This document shows, in pieces, positions 46,445 through 64,000 of a DNA stretch of 64,000 bases. Location: the NCBI GenBank assembly GCA_902613175.1, contig CACMGJ010000002.1, forward strand, positions 62,001-126,000, written 5' to 3'. The position numbers and the translations under genes were made by a program. The notes beneath the pieces are model-generated. The model saw nothing but the letters and a program-made list of their open reading frames with translations. It made no database searches and had not been told where the DNA came from. The stretch comes from Halieaceae bacterium. GTDB lineage: Bacteria; Pseudomonadota; Gammaproteobacteria; Pseudomonadales; Halieaceae. How positions within the stretch are numbered: the first letter of the stretch is position 1; each line of letters starts with the position of its first letter.

Positions 46445-46594
46445 CTATGGCTTTTTCTTCAGCGTGTAACGACGGCCCGAGCAACGTTTCGAGCAATACA
46501 CCACAGAGTCCCAGTTGAGCTTCCACTTCGCACGCCAAGCGAACGGGCGGTCACACACAGGGCAGATTTTGATGGGTAGGTCAGCCTTTTTCAC
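46445..46594 (-). CDS. DUF2256 zinc-finger-like small protein
   Basis: A 49-residue protein with KICPVCDRPFAWRAKW and VVYCSKRCSGRR, the CxxC...CxxxC pattern of DUF2256, probably a small zinc finger of unknown role. Genes of this family are often beside DASH cryptochromes, as here. I chose the GTG at 46594, which overlaps the end of the cryptochrome gene (stop 46581-46583) and gives the usual ~50 residues; an ATG at 46618 is the alternative. It abuts the photolyase gene tail to tail. Confidence 0.75.
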   Translation of the reverse strand: MKKADLPIKICPVCDRPFAWRAKWKLNWDSVVYCSKRCSGRRYTLKKKP

Positions 46595-47885
46595 TGTCGA
46601 TAGGCCAATCGGCGGCATCGGTAATGTAGTCGGGTTGCAGAGGTCGAACACCGCCCCACTTAGCCACAAAAATGCCGTTCGGGTCATGATCAGCCGTCTG
46701 TTTTCCTAAATCGAAATGACGGCCACCTCGCGGATCGCTTCCTACTCCCGCAATGTATTGCCAGTTCCCATAGTTGCTCCCGACGTCATAGTCGATCAGG
46801 TGTTTCTCAAAAAAAGCCGCGCCGAACCGCCAGTCACCTTGCAGCTCGTTAATAAGACAGCTCGCTGCGATTTGACGCCCGCGGTTGCTCATCCAGCCGG
46901 TGGCCACCAACTGTCGCATCAAGGCATTGACGATGGGGTAGTTGGTGTCACCCGCGCACCAGCGCGCGAAATTGCGTGGCTCGAAGGTGGATCGTAACGG
47001 CTTACCCGTTAACCCTGAGAGAAGGAATAGTGCCTTACCATCAACCATGGCACGCCAGTAGAAGAATTCGCGCCACAACAATTCGAAAAATAGCCAATAT
47101 GTTGACTCATTGGCGACTTTACTTTTTTCGAAATTAAAAATGGTATGAGCCACCTCACGAACCGATAGATTGCCGTTGGCTAGCCAGGGAGAGAAGGTGC
47201 TTGAGCCATCAAATCCATCCAGGCAATTACGCGTCAGTTTGTACCGTGTGATGGATTCGTCGTCCCAAATAAATTGCTTAACTCTACGCAGGCCTGCCCG
47301 GCGACCCCCGGGCAGGGGTAGGCCAGGATGTGGCTTGTGCATGGAGGGTGGAATGGCATCGAACTGTGCCGACGGTGGCGGTGGCAGTTGTTCCGGTGCT
47401 GCGTTTGGACCTCTGACGTTCAGTTTTTCAACTTTTCGTCGGAAGGGAGAGAACACCTGTGGCAGGTCTTCAAGCGGCATTGGCAAATCAGTTTCAGAAA
47501 ATAAGGTATTACCGCGATGGATTTGAATGGGGATATCCAGTTTTCCCGCAAGATAGGCGACGGATTGCTTCTCTTCCCAGCCCGGATGGTCACTGACGCT
47601 GACTTCCGTGATGCCGTAACGTTCGATGAGGTGCGGTATGACTAGTTCGGGAGATCCCTCCAGAACCAGAAGATCTTGACCGAGCGTCTGAAGTTCTTTT
47701 TTGAGCTCTATCAACGACTCACGCAAGAAACGATCGCGCTGCGCACCGATACCTGTGAGGTTGCACCATGGCTTTGGCTTGGGTATGAGGAACAGACATA
47801 ACAATGAGTCCGCGGCTGCATGGCTGGCGAGCGCAGGATTGTCATTGAGTCGTAGGTCGGTTCGGAACCAGTGAAGATGACGCAT
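46581..47885 (-). CDS. DASH-type cryptochrome/photolyase
   Basis: A 434-residue flavoprotein of the photolyase/cryptochrome family. The photolyase domain begins MRHLHWFRTDLRLNDNPAL, and the FAD domain includes LWREFFYWRAM, LMRQLVATGWMSNRGRQIAA and NYGNWQYIAGVGSDPRGGR, with the DASH-like tail KQTADHDPNGIFVAKWGG. DASH proteins repair cyclobutane dimers in single-stranded DNA or sense light. The frame reaches 47933, but the ATG at 47885 follows GAGG and matches the family start. It overlaps DUF2256 downstream. Confidence 0.88.
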   Translation of the reverse strand: MRHLHWFRTDLRLNDNPALASHAAADSLLCLFLIPKPKPWCNLTGIGAQRDRFLRESLIELKKELQTLGQDLLVLEGSPELVIPHLIERYGITEVSVSDHPGWEEKQSVAYLAGKLDIPIQIHRGNTLFSETDLPMPLEDLPQVFSPFRRKVEKLNVRGPNAAPEQLPPPPSAQFDAIPPSMHKPHPGLPLPGGRRAGLRRVKQFIWDDESITRYKLTRNCLDGFDGSSTFSPWLANGNLSVREVAHTIFNFEKSKVANESTYWLFFELLWREFFYWRAMVDGKALFLLSGLTGKPLRSTFEPRNFARWCAGDTNYPIVNALMRQLVATGWMSNRGRQIAASCLINELQGDWRFGAAFFEKHLIDYDVGSNYGNWQYIAGVGSDPRGGRHFDLGKQTADHDPNGIFVAKWGGVRPLQPDYITDAADWPIDSEKG

Positions 47886-47908
47886 GCAGAGAGGCCTCGT
47901 GATGAACC

Positions 47909-47919
47909 TGTACTGTACA
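47909..47919. promoter_or_regulatory. Tandem TGTAC motif upstream of the cryptochrome gene
   Basis: TGTACTGTACA lies 24 bases upstream of the cryptochrome ATG. TGTACA half-sites are part of operators of B12-dependent light sensors (CarH/LitR) as I recall them, but the usual spaced pair is not present. Confidence 0.25.
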
Positions 47920-48118
47920 AGAGGTCGATGCAACGATGATGAGGGTCGAAATACTTCAAGTCGGACGTAGGCTCGACGCGCAACCGGGCTTTGTTTTGCG
48001 TTTAGGGCGAATGCGAGTCTATTCTTCTCCGCGTGTTTCGCTTTGCAAAAAAAACGAAGCGATGAGACGCCGTTAATAATAAAAACTGTATGAATGGATT
48101 AATTGAGAGGTTTTCTGC

Positions 48119-57407: not shown

Positions 57408-57761
57408 CTACGGCTGCTCGAGTGCCCGCTCGAGTTGCGTCATGGGGCCGCCGTCAAAAACCAGTTGAAAGCCCGCTTCCTTGAGCAAGGTCTTTGCTTG
57501 CGCAGACCTACGTCCGCTGCGGCAGTAGACAATGACTTCCTCATCGAGCTCGACGCCCATGTCGAGTAAGGTACCGGGGAGGCCCTGAAGCGGATGATTG
57601 AGCGCGCCATCGATAGCACTGGAGGCGTATTCACCCTCGGAGCGCACTTCGACAATAAAGGGAGAGCCCAGGCCCTGCTGGATCTTGACGAGATCGTCTG
57701 CCGCCTGAACCCACAGACTGGAAACGGTGAATAAGAGGGCGCTGAGTCGCGCCCCTGTCAT
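57408..57761 (-). CDS. Periplasmic rhodanese-like protein
   Basis: A 117-residue single-domain rhodanese with a signal peptide (MTGARLSALLFTVSSLWVQA). The active-site loop is VYCRSGRRS with Cys80, so the nucleophile is kept. It resembles PspE/GlpE-type sulfurtransferases that move sulfane sulfur to cyanide or other acceptors. It overlaps the SulP gene by one base (TAATG) and is probably co-translated with it, hinting at sulfur chemistry. Confidence 0.85.
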   Translation of the reverse strand: MTGARLSALLFTVSSLWVQAADDLVKIQQGLGSPFIVEVRSEGEYASSAIDGALNHPLQGLPGTLLDMGVELDEEVIVYCRSGRRSAQAKTLLKEAGFQLVFDGGPMTQLERALEQP

Positions 57762-59431
57762 TAGGCTGCGACCGACGCGTCGTTACTCTGAGGTTCCTGT
57801 GACTCTTCTTCCAAAATCCATTCTTTTGCCGCCTCAAGCGCTTCTAATCGGGTGAGATACTGCATGTTAGCAGGTAAGTGATCGGCAACGCCCAGCCCCT
57901 TAAGAACGTGAGCCACTTCCTGCTTAATACCGCAGGCATATAAGCGTTTTCCCGCGTTATGTGCATCAACAGCAATAGTCTCTACCGCTCGAGCGGCCGA
58001 CACATCCATAAAGGGCACGCGATCGAAGTCGAGCACAATGGCGATGTGGTCGTTGCGTCCGACACGCTCTCGGACGTGGTGCCCCATATCGGCGGCAGCG
58101 CCGAAGCTCAATGGACCACCAAAATCAAACAAGGTGAGATGGTCATCAACTGCGTTGAAAATTTCTGTTTCAGCTTCGGTCAGCGCGACTTCGCCGCCAT
58201 CACCCTCACCACTAACCGCTTTCAGTTGCTCGTCCGCAATCTGTTTGACGAATGCTAGTGCTGCAATGACAACGCCCGCCATGACCGCAGTGATGAGGTC
58301 GACAAAGACAGTGAGACCCAGCACTAGCGCCATCAGCATCAGATCGAATCGAGGTCCCTGATGAGCCCGCTTGAGGTAGGCGATGTCGATAATATCGTAG
58401 CCAACCTTTACCAGAATGCCGGCTAGAACAGCGTGCGGGATCTTGGCGGCGAAAGGGGCGAGGACAAGAACAACGCCCAGGAGTAACGCGCTGTGGAACA
58501 TGCCTGAAATTTTGGTGCTACCACCTGTGCGAATATTGACGACCGTACGCATAGTCGCGCCCGCACCCGGGATACCGCCGAAAAACCCGGCGATGGTATT
58601 GCCGATCCCCTGACCCACGAGCTCGCGGTTTGAGTTGTGTCGGGTGCGAGTCATGTTGTCGGCGACGAGCGACGTCAGCAGGCTATCGATAGCGCCCAGA
58701 GCAGCAAGAATGGCCGCCGCCTCGAATATGATGATGGCGGTATCCGCTTCGATCGAGGGCACAACAAAACTCGGCAAGCCTGTCGGAATGGCACCCAAAA
58801 CAGGCAAGCCTTCGAGAGACAGCCCAATGAGTGTGCCGGTCACCAGCGCTGCAAGTGGTGCTGGGATGACGCGACCCCAGGTTGCGGGCCAGCTAAAGAC
58901 CATCACGAGCGTCAGAAGGCCCACAAACAATGCACCAAAATGAGGTTCCATAACCGCCGTTGGTACCTCCAGTAGCGCCGGAATCGTGCCGCCGCCCTGA
59001 GGCTCATGTCCAAACAGTCGCGCGAGTTGCAATGCAATGATGATGCAACCAATACCGCTCATGAAGCCTGAGACTACGGGGTAGGGAACCAGCCGGATGT
59101 ATTGTCCGAAGCCTAAAACCCCGAATACGATTTGCATGATCCCAGCGAGAATCACGGTGGCAAATACGAGCGACGGGTCCCCGTTTAACGAAGCAAAAAC
59201 ACCGGCGAAGACAACAACCATTGGACCGGTGGGACCCGTGATTTGTGAGCCGGTGCCGCCAAAGAGAGCGGCGAAAAATCCGACAATAATCGCCCCATAG
59301 ACACCGGCAATGGGACCTGCACCTGACGCCTCACCAAAGGCAAGTGCCAGTGGGAGCGCAACAACACCAGCGGTTAATCCGCCGTAAATGTCCCCGCGAA
59401 GATTACTCGTATCGAAAAACTTGCTGCTCAT
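57761..59431 (-). CDS. SulP-family anion transporter, BicA-like
   Basis: A 556-residue inner-membrane transporter with about 12-14 helices and a C-terminal STAS domain (about 430-540). The start RGDIYGGLTAGVVALPLALA, the segment TGPTGPMVVV, and LLTSLVADNMTRTRHNSNRE are very like cyanobacterial BicA, a Na+-dependent bicarbonate importer, though the family also carries sulfate. The downstream rhodanese suggests sulfur, the nearby gamma carbonic anhydrase suggests carbon. Both remain open. Confidence 0.9.
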   Translation of the reverse strand: MSSKFFDTSNLRGDIYGGLTAGVVALPLALAFGEASGAGPIAGVYGAIIVGFFAALFGGTGSQITGPTGPMVVVFAGVFASLNGDPSLVFATVILAGIMQIVFGVLGFGQYIRLVPYPVVSGFMSGIGCIIIALQLARLFGHEPQGGGTIPALLEVPTAVMEPHFGALFVGLLTLVMVFSWPATWGRVIPAPLAALVTGTLIGLSLEGLPVLGAIPTGLPSFVVPSIEADTAIIIFEAAAILAALGAIDSLLTSLVADNMTRTRHNSNRELVGQGIGNTIAGFFGGIPGAGATMRTVVNIRTGGSTKISGMFHSALLLGVVLVLAPFAAKIPHAVLAGILVKVGYDIIDIAYLKRAHQGPRFDLMLMALVLGLTVFVDLITAVMAGVVIAALAFVKQIADEQLKAVSGEGDGGEVALTEAETEIFNAVDDHLTLFDFGGPLSFGAAADMGHHVRERVGRNDHIAIVLDFDRVPFMDVSAARAVETIAVDAHNAGKRLYACGIKQEVAHVLKGLGVADHLPANMQYLTRLEALEAAKEWILEEESQEPQSNDASVAA

Positions 59432-60015: not shown

Positions 60016-60065
60016 TGATAGTTGTTACTAATATATCAATATCTTTTGATAGTAAAAAACTATCA
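60016..60065. promoter_or_regulatory. OxyR-type LysR box: palindrome plus half-site
   Basis: TGATAGT-AAAAA-ACTATCA (60047-60065) is a perfect palindrome that contains ATAG-N7-CTAT, the spacing of OxyR half-sites. A further TGATAGT is at 60016-60022. It ends 17 bases before the LysR ATG, the usual place for autoregulation. Confidence 0.6.
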
Positions 60066-60082
60066 CCTACAAAGGAGTCGTA

Positions 60083-61021
60083 ATGCAGTCAAAATTGAAT
60101 GTCAGTCTGCGACAAATCGCCTATTTCAAGGCTATCGGCGAAGTGGGAAGCTTCCGTGGCGCTGCGGAACGTCTCGGTGTGACCCAGCCCACATTGACAG
60201 CTCAGATAGCGACGCTCGAGGAGTCTTTAGGCGTCAAGTTATTCGAGCGAACACGATCTGGCGCTACGCCGACGGTTGCTGCCAGAGAGCTGTTACCCGT
60301 CTGTAACCGCATTCAAGAAGAAGTGCAGAGCTTTGTCGACACGGCGCATGGGTTTACCGGGGGTGAAACGGGAACGTATCGAATCGGTGTAACGCCGACC
60401 TTGGGGCCATACCTCCTTCCTCAGGTCCTTCCTGAAATTCATGAACGTTTCCAAGAGCTTCGCCTGTTTGTGCGCGAGGGAGTGCCAGCGGAACTGAATC
60501 AGGATCTCAGGGGCGCTAAGCATGACCTTATCTTGTCGACTCAGCCAATAGCCGAGGCAGGTTTAGAGATAAGCCCTCTGTTCAGAGAACTGTTGAAATT
60601 GGTATTGCCCCTCGATCATCGCCTAGCAAATAAGAAAGTGATTAATCGTACGGACCTCGTGGGTGAGGAGGTACTGACGATTGACGAACACCACCTGTAT
60701 CACAGACAAGTCACCGAACTCTGCCAGACACTGGGTGCCACGACACGTCGAGACTTTGAGGGGACGTCGCTCGATACGTTACGGCAGATGGTCGTGATGG
60801 GTATGGGGATCACCTTCTTACCGTCACTGTACGTTGCGTCCGAGATTCGAGACTCGGACCCGCTTCGCGTCACGGATGTTTTTGGGGTCAATATGTATCG
60901 TGATCACGCGCTGGCGTGGCGGAATCGATCGCCTGCCCGTCCGTTGTTCCGCAGGCTCGCACAAACCATCAGAGAGTTGGTTCCCGCGACTGGCGCCAGT
61001 GACCTACGACTGTTGTATTAG
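60083..61021 (+). CDS. OxyR-like LysR-family regulator lacking the sensor cysteine
   Basis: A 312-residue LysR regulator. The N-terminal HTH is GSFRGAAERLGVTQPTLTAQI (about 22-43). The effector domain follows OxyR closely: IGVTPTLGPYLLPQVLPEIH, SLDTLRQMVVMGMGITFLP. OxyR's peroxide-sensing Cys199 falls on Leu205 here, whereas Cys208 is kept as Cys214, so disulfide sensing should not work. It may sense a small ligand instead. AAAGGAG precedes the ATG. The divergent NTF2-like gene and the downstream crotonase are likely targets. Confidence 0.85.
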   Translation: MQSKLNVSLRQIAYFKAIGEVGSFRGAAERLGVTQPTLTAQIATLEESLGVKLFERTRSGATPTVAARELLPVCNRIQEEVQSFVDTAHGFTGGETGTYRIGVTPTLGPYLLPQVLPEIHERFQELRLFVREGVPAELNQDLRGAKHDLILSTQPIAEAGLEISPLFRELLKLVLPLDHRLANKKVINRTDLVGEEVLTIDEHHLYHRQVTELCQTLGATTRRDFEGTSLDTLRQMVVMGMGITFLPSLYVASEIRDSDPLRVTDVFGVNMYRDHALAWRNRSPARPLFRRLAQTIRELVPATGASDLRLLY

Positions 61022-61122
61022 TGATTCCGGCGTTTAGGGCCGTGTCTGAAGCGTCGTGGGCAGGTGTTTTAAGTGAGCGCGCCAGAACCATGGCGCTGCT
61101 ATGGTTGTTTGATGGACTTACC

Positions 61123-61152
61123 TTGATAAGATTCAGCAAATAACGCTAATAA
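61123..61152 (+). promoter_or_regulatory. Candidate promoter for the crotonase gene
   Basis: TTGATA (61123-61128) and TAATAA (61147-61152) lie 18 bases apart, about 100 bases upstream of the crotonase ATG. Fair match to a sigma-70 promoter. Confidence 0.35.
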
Positions 61153-61250
61153 ATAGCACGGCCCGGTGAGCGCAAGGTAATTGAACGCCTGCAGAAAGGG
61201 CGGTTGAAAAGTGCAGACCGTATTGAAAGTAACTAAGGGGAGTAACTGAC

Positions 61251-62015
61251 ATGAGCTACCAATCCACGACACCATTGATTAACACCGGACTGGATTCGAG
61301 CTGCCTGACGGTGGAGTTTAATCGACCCGATGCGCTCAACGCATTGCGCCCTGAGATGCTCTCTGAGGCGGCTCGGTTGGTAGAGCAGGCGAGTGATGAC
61401 CCTGCGGTAAAAGTAATTGTGTTGCGGGGCGCCGGCCGCGCCTTCTCCGCCGGCGTCGATTTGAAGGTACTCCAGGGTATTAAACCCGAGGGTGGGATCA
61501 TCGGTAACGTGTTTGATGAGCCCGCTGCGCGTTTAGCGGCAGCGATCCGTGATTCGGGTGTTCCTGTAATTGCACGTGCCGTGGGTGCGTGCTTCACGGG
61601 CGCCCTAGAGGTCGCCCTTCACTGCGATTTTGTCTACACCACAGATTCGACGAAGTTTGGCGACACCCACACAAAATTTGGTTTGCGACCCACCTGGGGA
61701 ATGTCGCAAACACTATCCCGTGCGGTGGGCCAGCGACGCGCCCGCGAGCTGTCGTTTACGGCGCGTATCTTCACGGGCGCTCAAGCGGTTGAATGGGGTG
61801 TTGCTAATGCGAGTTTTGAAACGCCTGAAGCACTCGATGACGCCTTGGCCTCGACGTGCGCACAGATTGCAGGCAACAGTGCAGAGGCGGTTGCGGCCAT
61901 AAAAGACCTCTATCGACTCGCTGAAACAGAGCAAGGTATTCGCCCCTCTTTGGCCGGCGAAACCGCTTCAAGTTACGAGATTTCGGACACCGACGATCGG
62001 CTCTCTGCCTTCTAG
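61251..62015 (+). CDS. Enoyl-CoA hydratase/isomerase (crotonase) family protein
   Basis: A 254-residue crotonase. The oxyanion segments are AFSAGVDLK (64-72) and GACFTGALE (112-120). The first catalytic glutamate is kept (Glu120), but the position of the second (Glu164 of rat hydratase) is His140 in GDTHTKFG. A Thr-His at this place also occurs in other crotonase subfamilies, so the reaction may not be simple hydration. GGGGAG lies upstream. It precedes the MTHFR-like and DmdA-like genes. Confidence 0.87.
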   Translation: MSYQSTTPLINTGLDSSCLTVEFNRPDALNALRPEMLSEAARLVEQASDDPAVKVIVLRGAGRAFSAGVDLKVLQGIKPEGGIIGNVFDEPAARLAAAIRDSGVPVIARAVGACFTGALEVALHCDFVYTTDSTKFGDTHTKFGLRPTWGMSQTLSRAVGQRRARELSFTARIFTGAQAVEWGVANASFETPEALDDALASTCAQIAGNSAEAVAAIKDLYRLAETEQGIRPSLAGETASSYEISDTDDRLSAF

Positions 62016-62117
62016 TCTCAGTTGCGCCTAACCCCTCGGGGGGACTCGTTTTTACGTACCTATTGCGTCGCAAAAAAAAGACGGTTACCGTCGCGTTTTT
62101 CGTAGATGAGATAGGTC

Positions 62118-62942
62118 ATGAGTACGGCAAAAACCTTGCTAGAATCGCTGTACTTCGAAGTCATCCCAATGAAGGGATTCGAAGAAAAACTGGACGTGCT
62201 CAAGGCGGGCGATCGCGTGGGAATCACGTGCTCGCCAAAGCAGGGTTTACAGGTCACACTTGATACGGTGGCCAAGCTCTCTGACCGCGGATTCTCGCTG
62301 ACACCTCACCTTGCGGCACGTCAGGTCATGCATAAGTACCATCTCAAAGAAATCGTGTCTCAGCTCACAGACAGTGGGATTACCTCCATCTTTGTGCCGG
62401 GTGGTGATCTTGATGAGCCCATGGGTGAATACGACAGCTCTGCAGCGGTGCTTCGCGATATAGCCGAAATGGATCATCCCTTCAAACGAATTGGTGTTGC
62501 ATCATATCCCGAAGGTCATCCTGCAATATCAGACGACATTTTGTTTGAGGCCTTGTCGGCAAAGCAGGGTATCGCCACGCACATGGTGACTCAGATGTGC
62601 CTCGACATGCCCGTACTCGTCAAGTGGCTTTCAGAGATGCGCGATCGAGGCATTACGACACCCGTATGGATCGGTCTACCCGGCGTGATGGACCGGATGC
62701 GCCTGTTCAAGACGTCGCTGCGCATTGGTGTGGGGCAGTCGGCTAAATACGCGAAGAAGCAAAAGGGCCTCATCGGTATGTTCTTGCGAAGCCCAAATTA
62801 CAAACCCGACTCGCTTTTCAAAGAGTTAACACCAGCGATGAATGATGAACGTATGGCCATTGAAGGCCTCTATATGTTCACGTTTAATCAAATCGACAAC
62901 ACTGTTCAGTGGTCTCAAGAACAACTTAAACGCCTGGCCTAG
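62118..62942 (+). CDS. Methylenetetrahydrofolate-reductase-like protein
   Basis: A 274-residue TIM-barrel protein of the MTHFR family (RVGITCSPKQGLQVTLDTV; TPHLAARQV; RIGVASYPEGHP; PVWIGLPGVMDRMRLFKT). It is a little shorter than E. coli MetF (296 aa). In this setting it would most likely turn methyl-THF made by the next gene back to methylene-THF. A role in methionine synthesis is less likely because no met genes are near. The DmdA-like gene starts 24 bases downstream. Confidence 0.85.
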   Translation: MSTAKTLLESLYFEVIPMKGFEEKLDVLKAGDRVGITCSPKQGLQVTLDTVAKLSDRGFSLTPHLAARQVMHKYHLKEIVSQLTDSGITSIFVPGGDLDEPMGEYDSSAAVLRDIAEMDHPFKRIGVASYPEGHPAISDDILFEALSAKQGIATHMVTQMCLDMPVLVKWLSEMRDRGITTPVWIGLPGVMDRMRLFKTSLRIGVGQSAKYAKKQKGLIGMFLRSPNYKPDSLFKELTPAMNDERMAIEGLYMFTFNQIDNTVQWSQEQLKRLA

Positions 62943-62965
62943 CCCGCCCACCGGAGACTTTTTCA

Positions 62966-64000
62966 ATGACAGACAGCACCCCACTCGCGATAGCTATAGG
63001 GCCGCGCGTTCGCCGGTCGCCTTTTTTTGACTCGACTATTGACGCCGGTGTTCGGTCGTTCACGATTTATAACCACATGTATTTGCCGGTTCATTTTGGG
63101 GACCCCCTGGCGGAATACTGGGCCATGGTGAATGGCGTTATTTTGGCGGACCACGCGGTGCAGCGGCAGGTAGAAATTAAGGGACCGGACGCGCTGGCAC
63201 TGACGCAACTTTTGACGCCCAGAGACATCTCGACCTGTCCCGTGGGCCGAGGTCGTTATGTCGTTTTTTGTAATGATCAGGGCGGTATCATCAATGACGC
63301 TGTTTTGTTTCGAACGGCAGAGGACTGTTTTTGGTTGTCGCCGGGTGATGGCGACGTCATCTTATGGGCGACAGGGCTCGCACTGGGCAAAGGCTACGAT
63401 GTTGAAGTGAGCGAGCCCGATGTATCGCCGTTGCAGCTTCAGGGTCCCGCCTCGCCGCATGTGGCAAAGAAGCTGTTTGGTGAGATTGCACTCACGCTTG
63501 GTTACTACCAATGCGTTGAACTTGAGCTTAACGATATTCCTGTTGTTCTTACTCGGACCGGCTGGAGTGGGGAGCTGGGCTATGAAATTTACCTCCTTGA
63601 CCATACGCGAGGCGGGGAGCTCTGGGACCTCATAATGGAGGCTGGGAAAGAGTTTGGGATAATGCCGGCTTGCCCATCGCTGATGCGTAGTGTCGAGGGT
63701 GGGATTTTGTCGCACGGCTCGGATATTACGCCCTGTGATTCGCCATTCACTATTGGTCTTGAGCGACTCATGGATCTCGACAAACCGTCCGAGTTTATTG
63801 GCCGTGATGCGCTTAAGCGAATTGAACAAGAAGGGACGCCGCGCAAGTTAGTCGGGGCCAATTTTGGAGGTGAGGCCATTGGTGGCAATGATAAGTTCTG
63901 GGATGTTTACTCCGACGGCGAGGTTGTTGGGCAGATTACCCGCTGCTGCTATTCGCCACGACTCGAGCACAACATTGCCCTGGTCAACGTGCCAACCGAG
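62966..64000 (+). CDS. dmdA: DmdA/GcvT-family tetrahydrofolate-dependent methyltransferase (partial)
   Basis: 345 codons without a stop, running off the window end; DmdA proteins are about 365-370 residues, so little is missing. Segments IAIGPRVRRSPFFDSTI, SFTIYNHMYLPVHFGDPLAEY, RQVEIKGPDA, SEPDVSPLQLQGP, RTGWSGELGYEIYL and GLERLMDLDKPSEFIGRDAL closely follow SAR11 DmdA, which moves a methyl group from dimethylsulfoniopropionate to tetrahydrofolate. GGAGA precedes the ATG. A related O- or N-demethylase is possible. Confidence 0.8.
   Translation, partial: MTDSTPLAIAIGPRVRRSPFFDSTIDAGVRSFTIYNHMYLPVHFGDPLAEYWAMVNGVILADHAVQRQVEIKGPDALALTQLLTPRDISTCPVGRGRYVVFCNDQGGIINDAVLFRTAEDCFWLSPGDGDVILWATGLALGKGYDVEVSEPDVSPLQLQGPASPHVAKKLFGEIALTLGYYQCVELELNDIPVVLTRTGWSGELGYEIYLLDHTRGGELWDLIMEAGKEFGIMPACPSLMRSVEGGILSHGSDITPCDSPFTIGLERLMDLDKPSEFIGRDALKRIEQEGTPRKLVGANFGGEAIGGNDKFWDVYSDGEVVGQITRCCYSPRLEHNIALVNVPTE

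Follow-up and report, generated by a model that had tools for sequence, protein, structure and literature searches.

A DmdA-like demethylase and its methylenetetrahydrofolate reductase-like partner: a putative methyl-salvage module in a Halieaceae bacterium

Four genes at the end of a 64,000-nucleotide stretch of a Halieaceae bacterium (assembly GCA_902613175.1, contig CACMGJ010000002.1; G000:C2:62001-126000; hereafter the window) encode, in this order and all on the forward strand, a LysR-type regulator, a crotonase-fold protein, a short protein resembling methylenetetrahydrofolate reductase (MTHFR), and a protein resembling the dimethylsulfoniopropionate (DMSP) demethylase DmdA. Strong family matches and a gene order conserved in relatives establish that this set is real and more than chance. 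From sequence comparison, we consider it likely that the last two products make up a methyl-salvage and oxidation module, in which a tetrahydrofolate (THF)-dependent demethylase is paired with a methyl-THF oxidase. DMSP is an algal compound whose methyl group DmdA transfers to THF. The original prediction, which had the same four genes in the same order, proposed a locus for the demethylation of DMSP or for another THF-dependent demethylation. THF-dependent demethylation is well supported by profile and structure-database scores; DMSP as the substrate is not established, given that the enzyme falls into a clade of its own with four changed residues.

We compared the query genome, a draft of 58.57% completeness in 82 contigs, with 11 others of its genus whose DmdA-like proteins are 77-95% identical. 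As its family membership suggests, the DmdA-like enzyme would demethylate a small methylated compound and pass the methyl group on to THF, yielding 5-methyl-THF. The MTHFR-like protein would then run oxidatively and convert 5-methyl-THF to 5,10-methylene-THF, a step suggested by its kinship to the S6MTHFR protein and by the gene content of the genomes, and the product could feed biosynthesis or be oxidised further to formate and CO2. In four of the eight near-complete genomes with the operon we found no folate-dependent methionine synthase, and there methyl-THF would lead nowhere but for this partner. More speculatively, the crotonase might act on the demethylated product or a coenzyme A (CoA) thioester, and the LysR protein might sense the substrate rather than peroxide.

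The demethylase and its relatives

The DmdA-like gene (62966..64000, forward strand) runs past the end of the window, and its stop in the assembly lies at window-equivalent position 64114 (L005:6115), which makes the product 382 amino acids long. Its GCV_T (135.4 bits) and GCV_T_C (59.5 bits) domains match the architecture of DmdA, a protein of about 370 amino acids. With NF009133, the DMSP demethylase model, it scores 330.6 bits, below the curated cut-off of 410; the models for trimethylamine N-oxide (TMAO) demethylase, GcvT, soxA, DesA and LigM give 192.9, 162.7, 87.8, 62.4 and 55.1 bits, respectively. Chain 3tfh leads the ranking of solved structures (E 6.2e-68), ahead of an aminomethyltransferase (1.3e-39), TMAO demethylase (2.5e-38) and LigM (9.3e-13). 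The structure listing labels 3tfh a GcvT-like aminomethyltransferase, and the accessible text of PMC7487153 names it DmdA. By these scores, on which the ranking rests as our tree had no GcvT row, the enzyme is nearer to DmdA than to GcvT, the sarcosine and dimethylglycine enzymes or LigM, in agreement with the original prediction, which had named the GcvT, sarcosine dehydrogenase and LigM branches as the places where its assignment would fail. A verdict of 'not DmdA' drawn from the NF009133 cut-off alone was rejected: the protein of the SAR92 strain H921 (locus L091) misses the cut-off as well, with 373 bits, and the miss is therefore not decisive.

By identity to the query, DmdA-family proteins of the GTDB-type family fall into groups A (the query's own), B (about 55-65%), C (43-50%), D (about 38-42%, mostly over the DmdA cut-off) and E (35-38%, 441-574 bits), D and E being told apart by trees. 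The closest named relatives are proteins of uncultured Halieaceae (82% and 60-63% identity) and of Luminiphilus (61%). A maximum-likelihood tree of 48 rows unites A and B with three outside rows in a clade of their own (100/100 support). This clade joins the SAR92-type clade C (itself 100/99), which includes the H921 protein, at 95/75, and 3tfh and E lie outside both (100/99). The outgroup was dimethylglycine-dehydrogenase-like only, a branch of 10 in all, and the root is uninformative. Two of the 14 genomes with clade A (G064 and G071) also hold a SAR92-type paralogue.

In an alignment of 47 rows, 26 columns, picked by a rule without a null, separate clade A from C and E. Four columns set A and B apart from all of the 29 other rows, which comprise C, D, E and three basal rows: Ala112 stands in place of Pro, Ser242 in place of Arg (Thr in two of eight B rows), Thr262 in place of Glu and Arg326 in place of Ser, corresponding to P109, R239, E259 and S323 of 3tfh. 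The three outside rows of the clade share these residues except for one Val at 262, and His63 is exclusive to clade A. The pocket motif is kept in the alignment, with W200, E207 and Y209 of the query aligning to Trp197, Glu204 and Tyr206 of 3tfh, which we mapped by alignment onto W171, E178 and Y180 of PMC7487153. Because the pocket Trp occurs in non-DmdA clades as well, according to the portion of that article at hand, the motif is not diagnostic. This combination suggests a distinct subfamily, and the enzyme should be called DmdA-like, not DmdA yet.

Other members of the family have neighbours of their own. Over-cut-off clade D paralogues in G104, G078, G085 and G111 (loci L047, L048, L050 and L051) lie beside aldehyde dehydrogenase and sodium/solute symporter genes, and an iron alcohol dehydrogenase gene also adjoins the paralogue in three of the four loci (one gene per cluster was scanned). 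SAR11 members of the SAR92-type clade (L088, L103, L110, L113, L126, L137 and others) sit directly downstream, on the same strand, of a gene of the isocitrate lyase cluster, for which PF00463 was scanned in L137 only. A clade B group (L077, L079 and L080) stands beside a major facilitator superfamily (MFS) transporter gene and a homocysteine S-methyltransferase gene (PF02574; scanned in L077, assigned by cluster in the others). Two of the three outside members of the A+B clade (L083 and L084) lie tail to tail with genes for a PF12806 acyl-CoA dehydrogenase and a FadB-like protein (L083 scanned); PF12806 is, we presume, also a domain of DmdC. Across 57 genomes of the genus, over-cut-off DmdA paralogues occur in 24, none among the 14 with clade A versus 24 of the 43 without it. 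We left this exclusion aside because shared ancestry can explain it.

The MTHFR-like partner and the fate of the methyl group

The MTHFR-like gene (62118..62942, forward strand) ends 23 bases before the demethylase gene. Its product gives a weak match to the Pfam MTHFR family (PF02219, 40.8 bits, cut-off 24), and its best solved chain is 7xg9, at E 2.8e-29 versus 2.4e-06 for the next chain. The structure listing names 7xg9 merely 5,10-methylenetetrahydrofolate reductase; we take it to be S6MTHFR of Sphingobium lignivorans SYK-6. By eye on the printed sequences, the protein retains the Glu, Asp and Gln of Escherichia coli MetF that we assume to matter in that enzyme. In SYK-6, the MTHFR homologue S6MTHFR oxidises the 5-methyl-THF produced by LigM (PMC12585457, a meeting abstract). 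The original prediction had the MTHFR-like protein recycle methyl-THF; kinship to S6MTHFR and pairing with a demethylase indicate that it most likely re-oxidises it.

The distribution of the gene points in the same direction. Within the genus, this MTHFR-like form (PF02219 at E 0.001) occurs in 14 of the 14 genomes with clade A (E 1e-60) and in none of the 43 without it, a co-occurrence with a Fisher p of 1.3e-13, not corrected for shared ancestry. It tracks the demethylase perfectly in the genus, not canonical MetF. A search of 390 genomes at the level of the order, seeded with the MTHFR-like protein alone, returned 37 matches in 34 genomes, and 30 loci were fetched. A GCV_T-type demethylase lay within 1.5 kb in 23 of these 30. 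One is LigM (773 bits, cut-off 580), the known module, and 22 are of the DmdA family (349.8-650.8 bits with our own profile); four of the latter belong to clades A and B, so that the figure for the other loci is 18 of 26. With the same profile and flanks, no demethylase neighboured 14 ordinary MetF loci or 18 loci of a third MTHFR type, several of these control stretches being truncated where their contigs end.

The third MTHFR type (116-138 bits with PF02219) is found in 16 of the 57 genus genomes, for example at G085:C123 (L202) and G059:C18 (L203), and 15 of these 16 also have an over-cut-off DmdA paralogue. Marinobacterium loci, for their part, combine two DmdA-like genes, an MTHFR-like gene, FolD and a formyl-transferase-domain protein, the last two of which may provide further steps of a methyl-to-formate route; the Marinobacterium MTHFR-like member that was scanned has no Pfam match and is named solely by its identity of about 26% to the query protein. 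In three such loci (L087, L092 and L099) the two DmdA-like genes are near-identical and lie about 4-5 kb apart, with the formyl-transferase-domain gene beside the first. A literature search of limited coverage found no pairing of DmdA-like and S6MTHFR-type proteins in Gammaproteobacteria; Yu et al. 2025 (Commun. Biol.), in an abstract-level summary, describe similar gene sets in many bacteria.

The repertoire of methionine enzymes provides insight into what becomes of the methyl group. Among the 12 genomes with the operon, we found a MetF-strength PF02219 match in three, PF02965 (MetH) in two, PF01717 (MetE type) in two and PF02574 in 10. Eight of the 12 are at least 90% complete, and four of those (G058, G070, G075 and G098) have no match to PF02965, PF01717 or PF02219 at MetF grade. 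All four have PF02574, relatives of which can use betaine, DMSP or S-methylmethionine directly, as stated in the available part of PMC12366255. With MetH, MetE and ordinary MetF all undetected in these four genomes, the methyl group is likely re-oxidised, and methyl-THF in such cells likely has no evident use besides. SAR11 may provide a comparable case. There, metF (SAR11_1264) lies beside the gene of an aminomethyltransferase, SAR11_1265, whose function is unassigned in the part of PMC3160333 consulted, and SAR11 is said to be without MetE and MetH in the text of PMC12366255 seen, whose table lists metH or metE in two other strains. Transcripts of both genes drop to 0.10-0.20 of control in stationary phase (PMC5069961, in part).

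Several observations weigh against such a module. Three of the 12 operon genomes (G060, G071 and G072) have an ordinary MetF, two of them with MetH and the third with a partial PF02574 frame beside metF, and methionine synthesis is a possible methyl sink there. G063 has a weak MetE-type match (PF01717, 113.5 bits), and the absences come from draft genomes and hence are not proof. The glycine cleavage P-protein was found in all 12 operon genomes; the module is therefore no substitute for glycine cleavage, unlike in SYK-6. G102 carries a 28%-identical relative of the MTHFR-like protein beside a clade C gene, missed by PF02219, so that the perfect co-occurrence is limited to this MTHFR-like form. 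Seven of the 30 loci fetched in the order-level search have no demethylase within 1.5 kb (one, L168, is cut by a contig end), and seven of the 37 matches were left out of the neighbour count. In SAR11, the metF and SAR11_1265 proteins rise slightly while the transcripts fall (PMC5069961, same excerpt). Finally, the module leaves the role of the crotonase unexplained.

Conserved neighbours, crotonase and regulator

The MTHFR-like and DmdA-like genes are adjacent in all 12 genus loci. The order crotonase, MTHFR-like, DmdA-like is kept in 11 of the 11 loci that reach that far, and a LysR gene lies upstream in 11 of 11, separated from the crotonase gene in G060 by a polysaccharide-lyase gene. The DmdA-like reading frame of G075 contains one stop, and G057 and G084 have partial DmdA-like matches (97% and 95% identity) beside the MTHFR-like gene. 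The ratio of nonsynonymous to synonymous divergence (dN/dS) is 0.009-0.079 in five of 12 gene pairs, at a high dS of 1.2-2.8, and the other seven pairs are saturated. In the query genome, 229, 102, 23 and 193 bases separate, in turn, the LysR, crotonase, MTHFR-like, DmdA-like and frmA genes, and the G+C content of the gene stretch is 0.536 versus 0.532 in the window.

The gene frmA, for S-(hydroxymethyl)glutathione dehydrogenase (TIGR02818, 620.7 bits, over the cut-off), follows the DmdA-like gene to the contig end, which falls inside it, just 1,362 bases beyond the window. It comes directly after the DmdA-like gene in seven of the 12 loci (with a small frame between them in L065) and after an inserted gene in one; a stretch with MFS and GH43 genes takes its place in three, and the contig ends in one. 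In seven relatives an S-formylglutathione hydrolase gene (fghA) follows frmA (one was scanned, with TIGR02821 over its cut-off). The proposal that FrmA and FghA belong to the operon was retained in part only. A consensus scan of the 193-base gap before frmA found no terminator-like site, and it says little because it found fewer sites than were found in shuffled sequences.

The original prediction had suggested looking past base 64000 for ligase and dehydrogenase genes. No CoA ligase or DmdC-type dehydrogenase gene is found in the locus, including the 1.4 kb to the contig end, or among the genes scanned further downstream in relatives, a scan that did not take in every gene. What was found there is a second crotonase-family gene, an acetyltransferase, a carbamoyltransferase, a tetratricopeptide repeat (TPR) protein and an MFS transporter. 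Carbohydrate genes (GH43, polysaccharide lyase) lie beyond the DmdA-like gene on the opposite strand in three of the 12 loci and between the LysR and crotonase genes in one; because of these positions and strands, in so few loci, they look like insertions, and we set them aside as a substrate clue.

The crotonase (61251..62015, forward strand; PF00378, 143.9 bits) has PRK06190 as its best NCBIfam model, at 170.4 bits below the cut-off of 253. In an alignment to solved hydratases, the first catalytic Glu is kept (GALE) and the second is replaced by His (FGDTH), in all 12 ortholog rows (11 genomes, one listed twice). Rat hydratase and DmdD retain both Glu, according to the part of PMC5395565 available. 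The crotonase shares with DmdD, which the original prediction had mentioned, the fold and the first of the two glutamates, and lacks the second. An argument that this loss speaks strongly against DMSP was dropped, since the hydratase next to the H921 dmdA has Gln and Gly at the two catalytic positions and the loss is therefore compatible with DMSP. A second crotonase-family gene with both Glu present (262 amino acids, PF00378) lies past fghA on the opposite strand in seven of the 12 loci; the one at L063:5368-6156 has cluster-mates in the six other loci, and one of the seven was scanned.

The regulator (60083..61021, forward strand; PF03466 and PF00126) belongs to the OxyR branch of LysR-type proteins, as originally proposed. 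Its closest solved structures are OxyR chains and its best NCBIfam model is OxyR (186.6 bits, below the cut-off of 329). Where 6g1b has its peroxidatic Cys, presumably Cys199, the regulator has Leu, and the same residue stands in all 12 rows from 11 genomes. A role as a peroxide-sensing OxyR is thus not supported, and the protein more likely binds a small-molecule ligand than senses peroxide. Control of the gene set by this protein is suggested by conserved synteny only.

Elsewhere in the window, a SulP-type transporter is encoded at 57761-59431, with the bicarbonate transporter BicA as its best match (498.2 bits, below the cut-off of 880), and such a transporter lies near the locus in 10 of the 12 compared genomes. 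A DASH-family cryptochrome is encoded at 46581-47933 (TIGR02765, 446.7 bits, over the cut-off).

Candidate substrates and comparison with known systems

By descent, DMSP or a close sulfonium or betaine relative would be the most natural substrate candidate: if L091 is the H921 gene that was tested, tested DmdAs flank the A+B clade and DMSP is favoured, unless the root lies on the A+B branch. L091 is probably that gene, judged by the strain and by its neighbouring hydratase and ligase genes. We softened an earlier, certain identification because no dmdC lies beside it, the gene after the ligase encoding a TerB/DnaJ protein, whereas the excerpt of PMC10746254 gives the H921 order as dmdA-acuH-dmdB-dmdC, and because its identity to 3tfh is 33.1% in our own alignment versus 34.6-39.0% there. 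This softening and the dropped crotonase argument pull opposite ways and leave our view of DMSP unchanged. A true DMSP demethylation locus, in which a functional DmdA_like enzyme acts, DmdB and DmdC encoded elsewhere process methylmercaptopropionate (MMPA) and the MTHFR-like protein re-oxidises the methyl group, is a tentative possibility. The demethylase sits between 3tfh and the clade with H921 on the tree, shares 47-48% identity with the H921 protein and its miss of the NF009133 cut-off, and keeps the pocket motif; the bracket is soft, with a sister link of 95/75 and an uninformative root, and A and B form their own clade, differing from the 29 other rows at A112, S242, T262 and R326. The H921 dmdA restored methanethiol (MeSH) in an R. 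pomeroyi dmdA mutant to 34.3% of wild type, but H921 itself gave no detectable MeSH from DMSP (both from the part of PMC10746254 seen). The genes identified in the locus include neither a ligase nor a DmdC-type gene. DmdB-type ligase matches that fall slightly short of the cut-off of 822 lie elsewhere in all 12 genomes (10 at 791-817 bits and two more as fragments), and Luminiphilus is among the predicted DMSP degraders in the accessible text of PMC13310141. The His at the second catalytic position of the crotonase speaks weakly against DMSP and is compatible with it through the H921-adjacent hydratase, which lacks both Glu; the two-Glu crotonase past fghA in seven loci fits DMSP as well. The SAR92-type paralogue that G064 and G071 carry in addition counts against it. 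Alternatively, A and B may be a new subfamily of THF-dependent demethylases for a non-DMSP compound. Clade A with its dedicated methyl-THF oxidase would then be a stand-alone methyl-burning module, methyl-THF would be purely catabolic where a folate-dependent methionine synthase is absent, and SAR11_1265 with metF could be its alphaproteobacterial counterpart, a proposal that we find plausible although just short of an even bet.

Three further readings fare worse. O-demethylation of a methoxylated aromatic or sugar, in the manner of LigM and S6MTHFR and with the crotonase in side-chain removal, would draw on the same MTHFR partner type beside LigM, on the formaldehyde-oxidation genes next door and on the polysaccharide genes (GH43, polysaccharide lyase) of some relatives. 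It is unlikely, as the LigM and DesA models give the demethylase just 55 and 62 bits and the carbohydrate genes look like insertions. We regard it as quite improbable that the demethylase feeds methyl-THF to methionine synthesis or that the MTHFR-like protein works in the reductive direction as a biosynthetic MetF. In nine of the 12 operon genomes no PF02219 member was found besides this protein, but eight of those nine have no PF02965 or PF01717 match (G063 being the one with its weak PF01717), the PF02574 homocysteine methyltransferases present in 10 of the 12 have relatives that use other donors, and the gene follows the demethylase in its distribution, not canonical MetF. N-demethylation of glycine betaine, dimethylglycine, sarcosine or TMAO seems an equally poor prospect. 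TMAO demethylase and dimethylglycine dehydrogenase have the same fold as the query protein and follow among the next matches in the rankings, but these chains score 97 to 130 bits below 3tfh, and at about 800 amino acids they carry an additional catalytic part that the query protein lacks.

Methylated compounds, DMSP among them, are major sources of carbon and sulfur in the sea. At least one survey assigns DmdA_like genes at 40% identity (PMC13310141, in part), a rule that the DmdA-like protein could pass via its SAR92-type relatives. If the clade acts on another compound, counts of DMSP demethylation in Halieaceae may be too high and another methyl flux may go unseen. That the demethylase is paired with a likely methyl-THF oxidase also offers a testable idea for how the SAR11 aminomethyltransferase and metF handle methyl groups.

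How, then, does the locus relate to characterised systems? It is unlike the glycine cleavage system of GcvT: frmA follows the demethylase gene, with fghA next in relatives, and neither gcvH nor gcvP, the neighbours that would have contradicted the original prediction, lies beside it; gcvP matches lie on a different contig, or more than 1 Mb away in G058 and G060, whose assemblies consist of a single contig. With OxyR the regulator shares its closest solved relatives; by contrast, it scores below the model cut-off and has Leu at the peroxidatic position. The demethylase resembles DmdA (Pelagibacter 3tfh and the SAR92-type DmdA_like) in its GCV_T and GCV_T_C domains, top solved match, neighbouring clade and Trp/Glu/Tyr motif, and differs in its own clade, the replacement of Pro109, Arg239, Glu259 and Ser323 (3tfh numbering) in A and B, a score below the NF009133 cut-off (as for H921), the lack of dmdB or dmdC among the neighbours found and the presence of an MTHFR gene. 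SAR11_1265 and SAR11_1264, compared by published descriptions only, likewise place a DmdA-related aminomethyltransferase beside metF in a genome reported without metH or metE; the authors speculated that SAR11_1265 removes a second methyl group in DMSP breakdown, in the part of their report available. A parallel in design is LigM with S6MTHFR of SYK-6, which likewise combines a THF-dependent demethylase with the same short MTHFR type and its predicted 5-methyl-THF oxidation; here the demethylase is DmdA-like and the P-protein is present. In the query genome the two genes lie 23 bases apart. The locus is thus best described as a known module in a new variant, a DmdA-like demethylase with an S6MTHFR-type partner.

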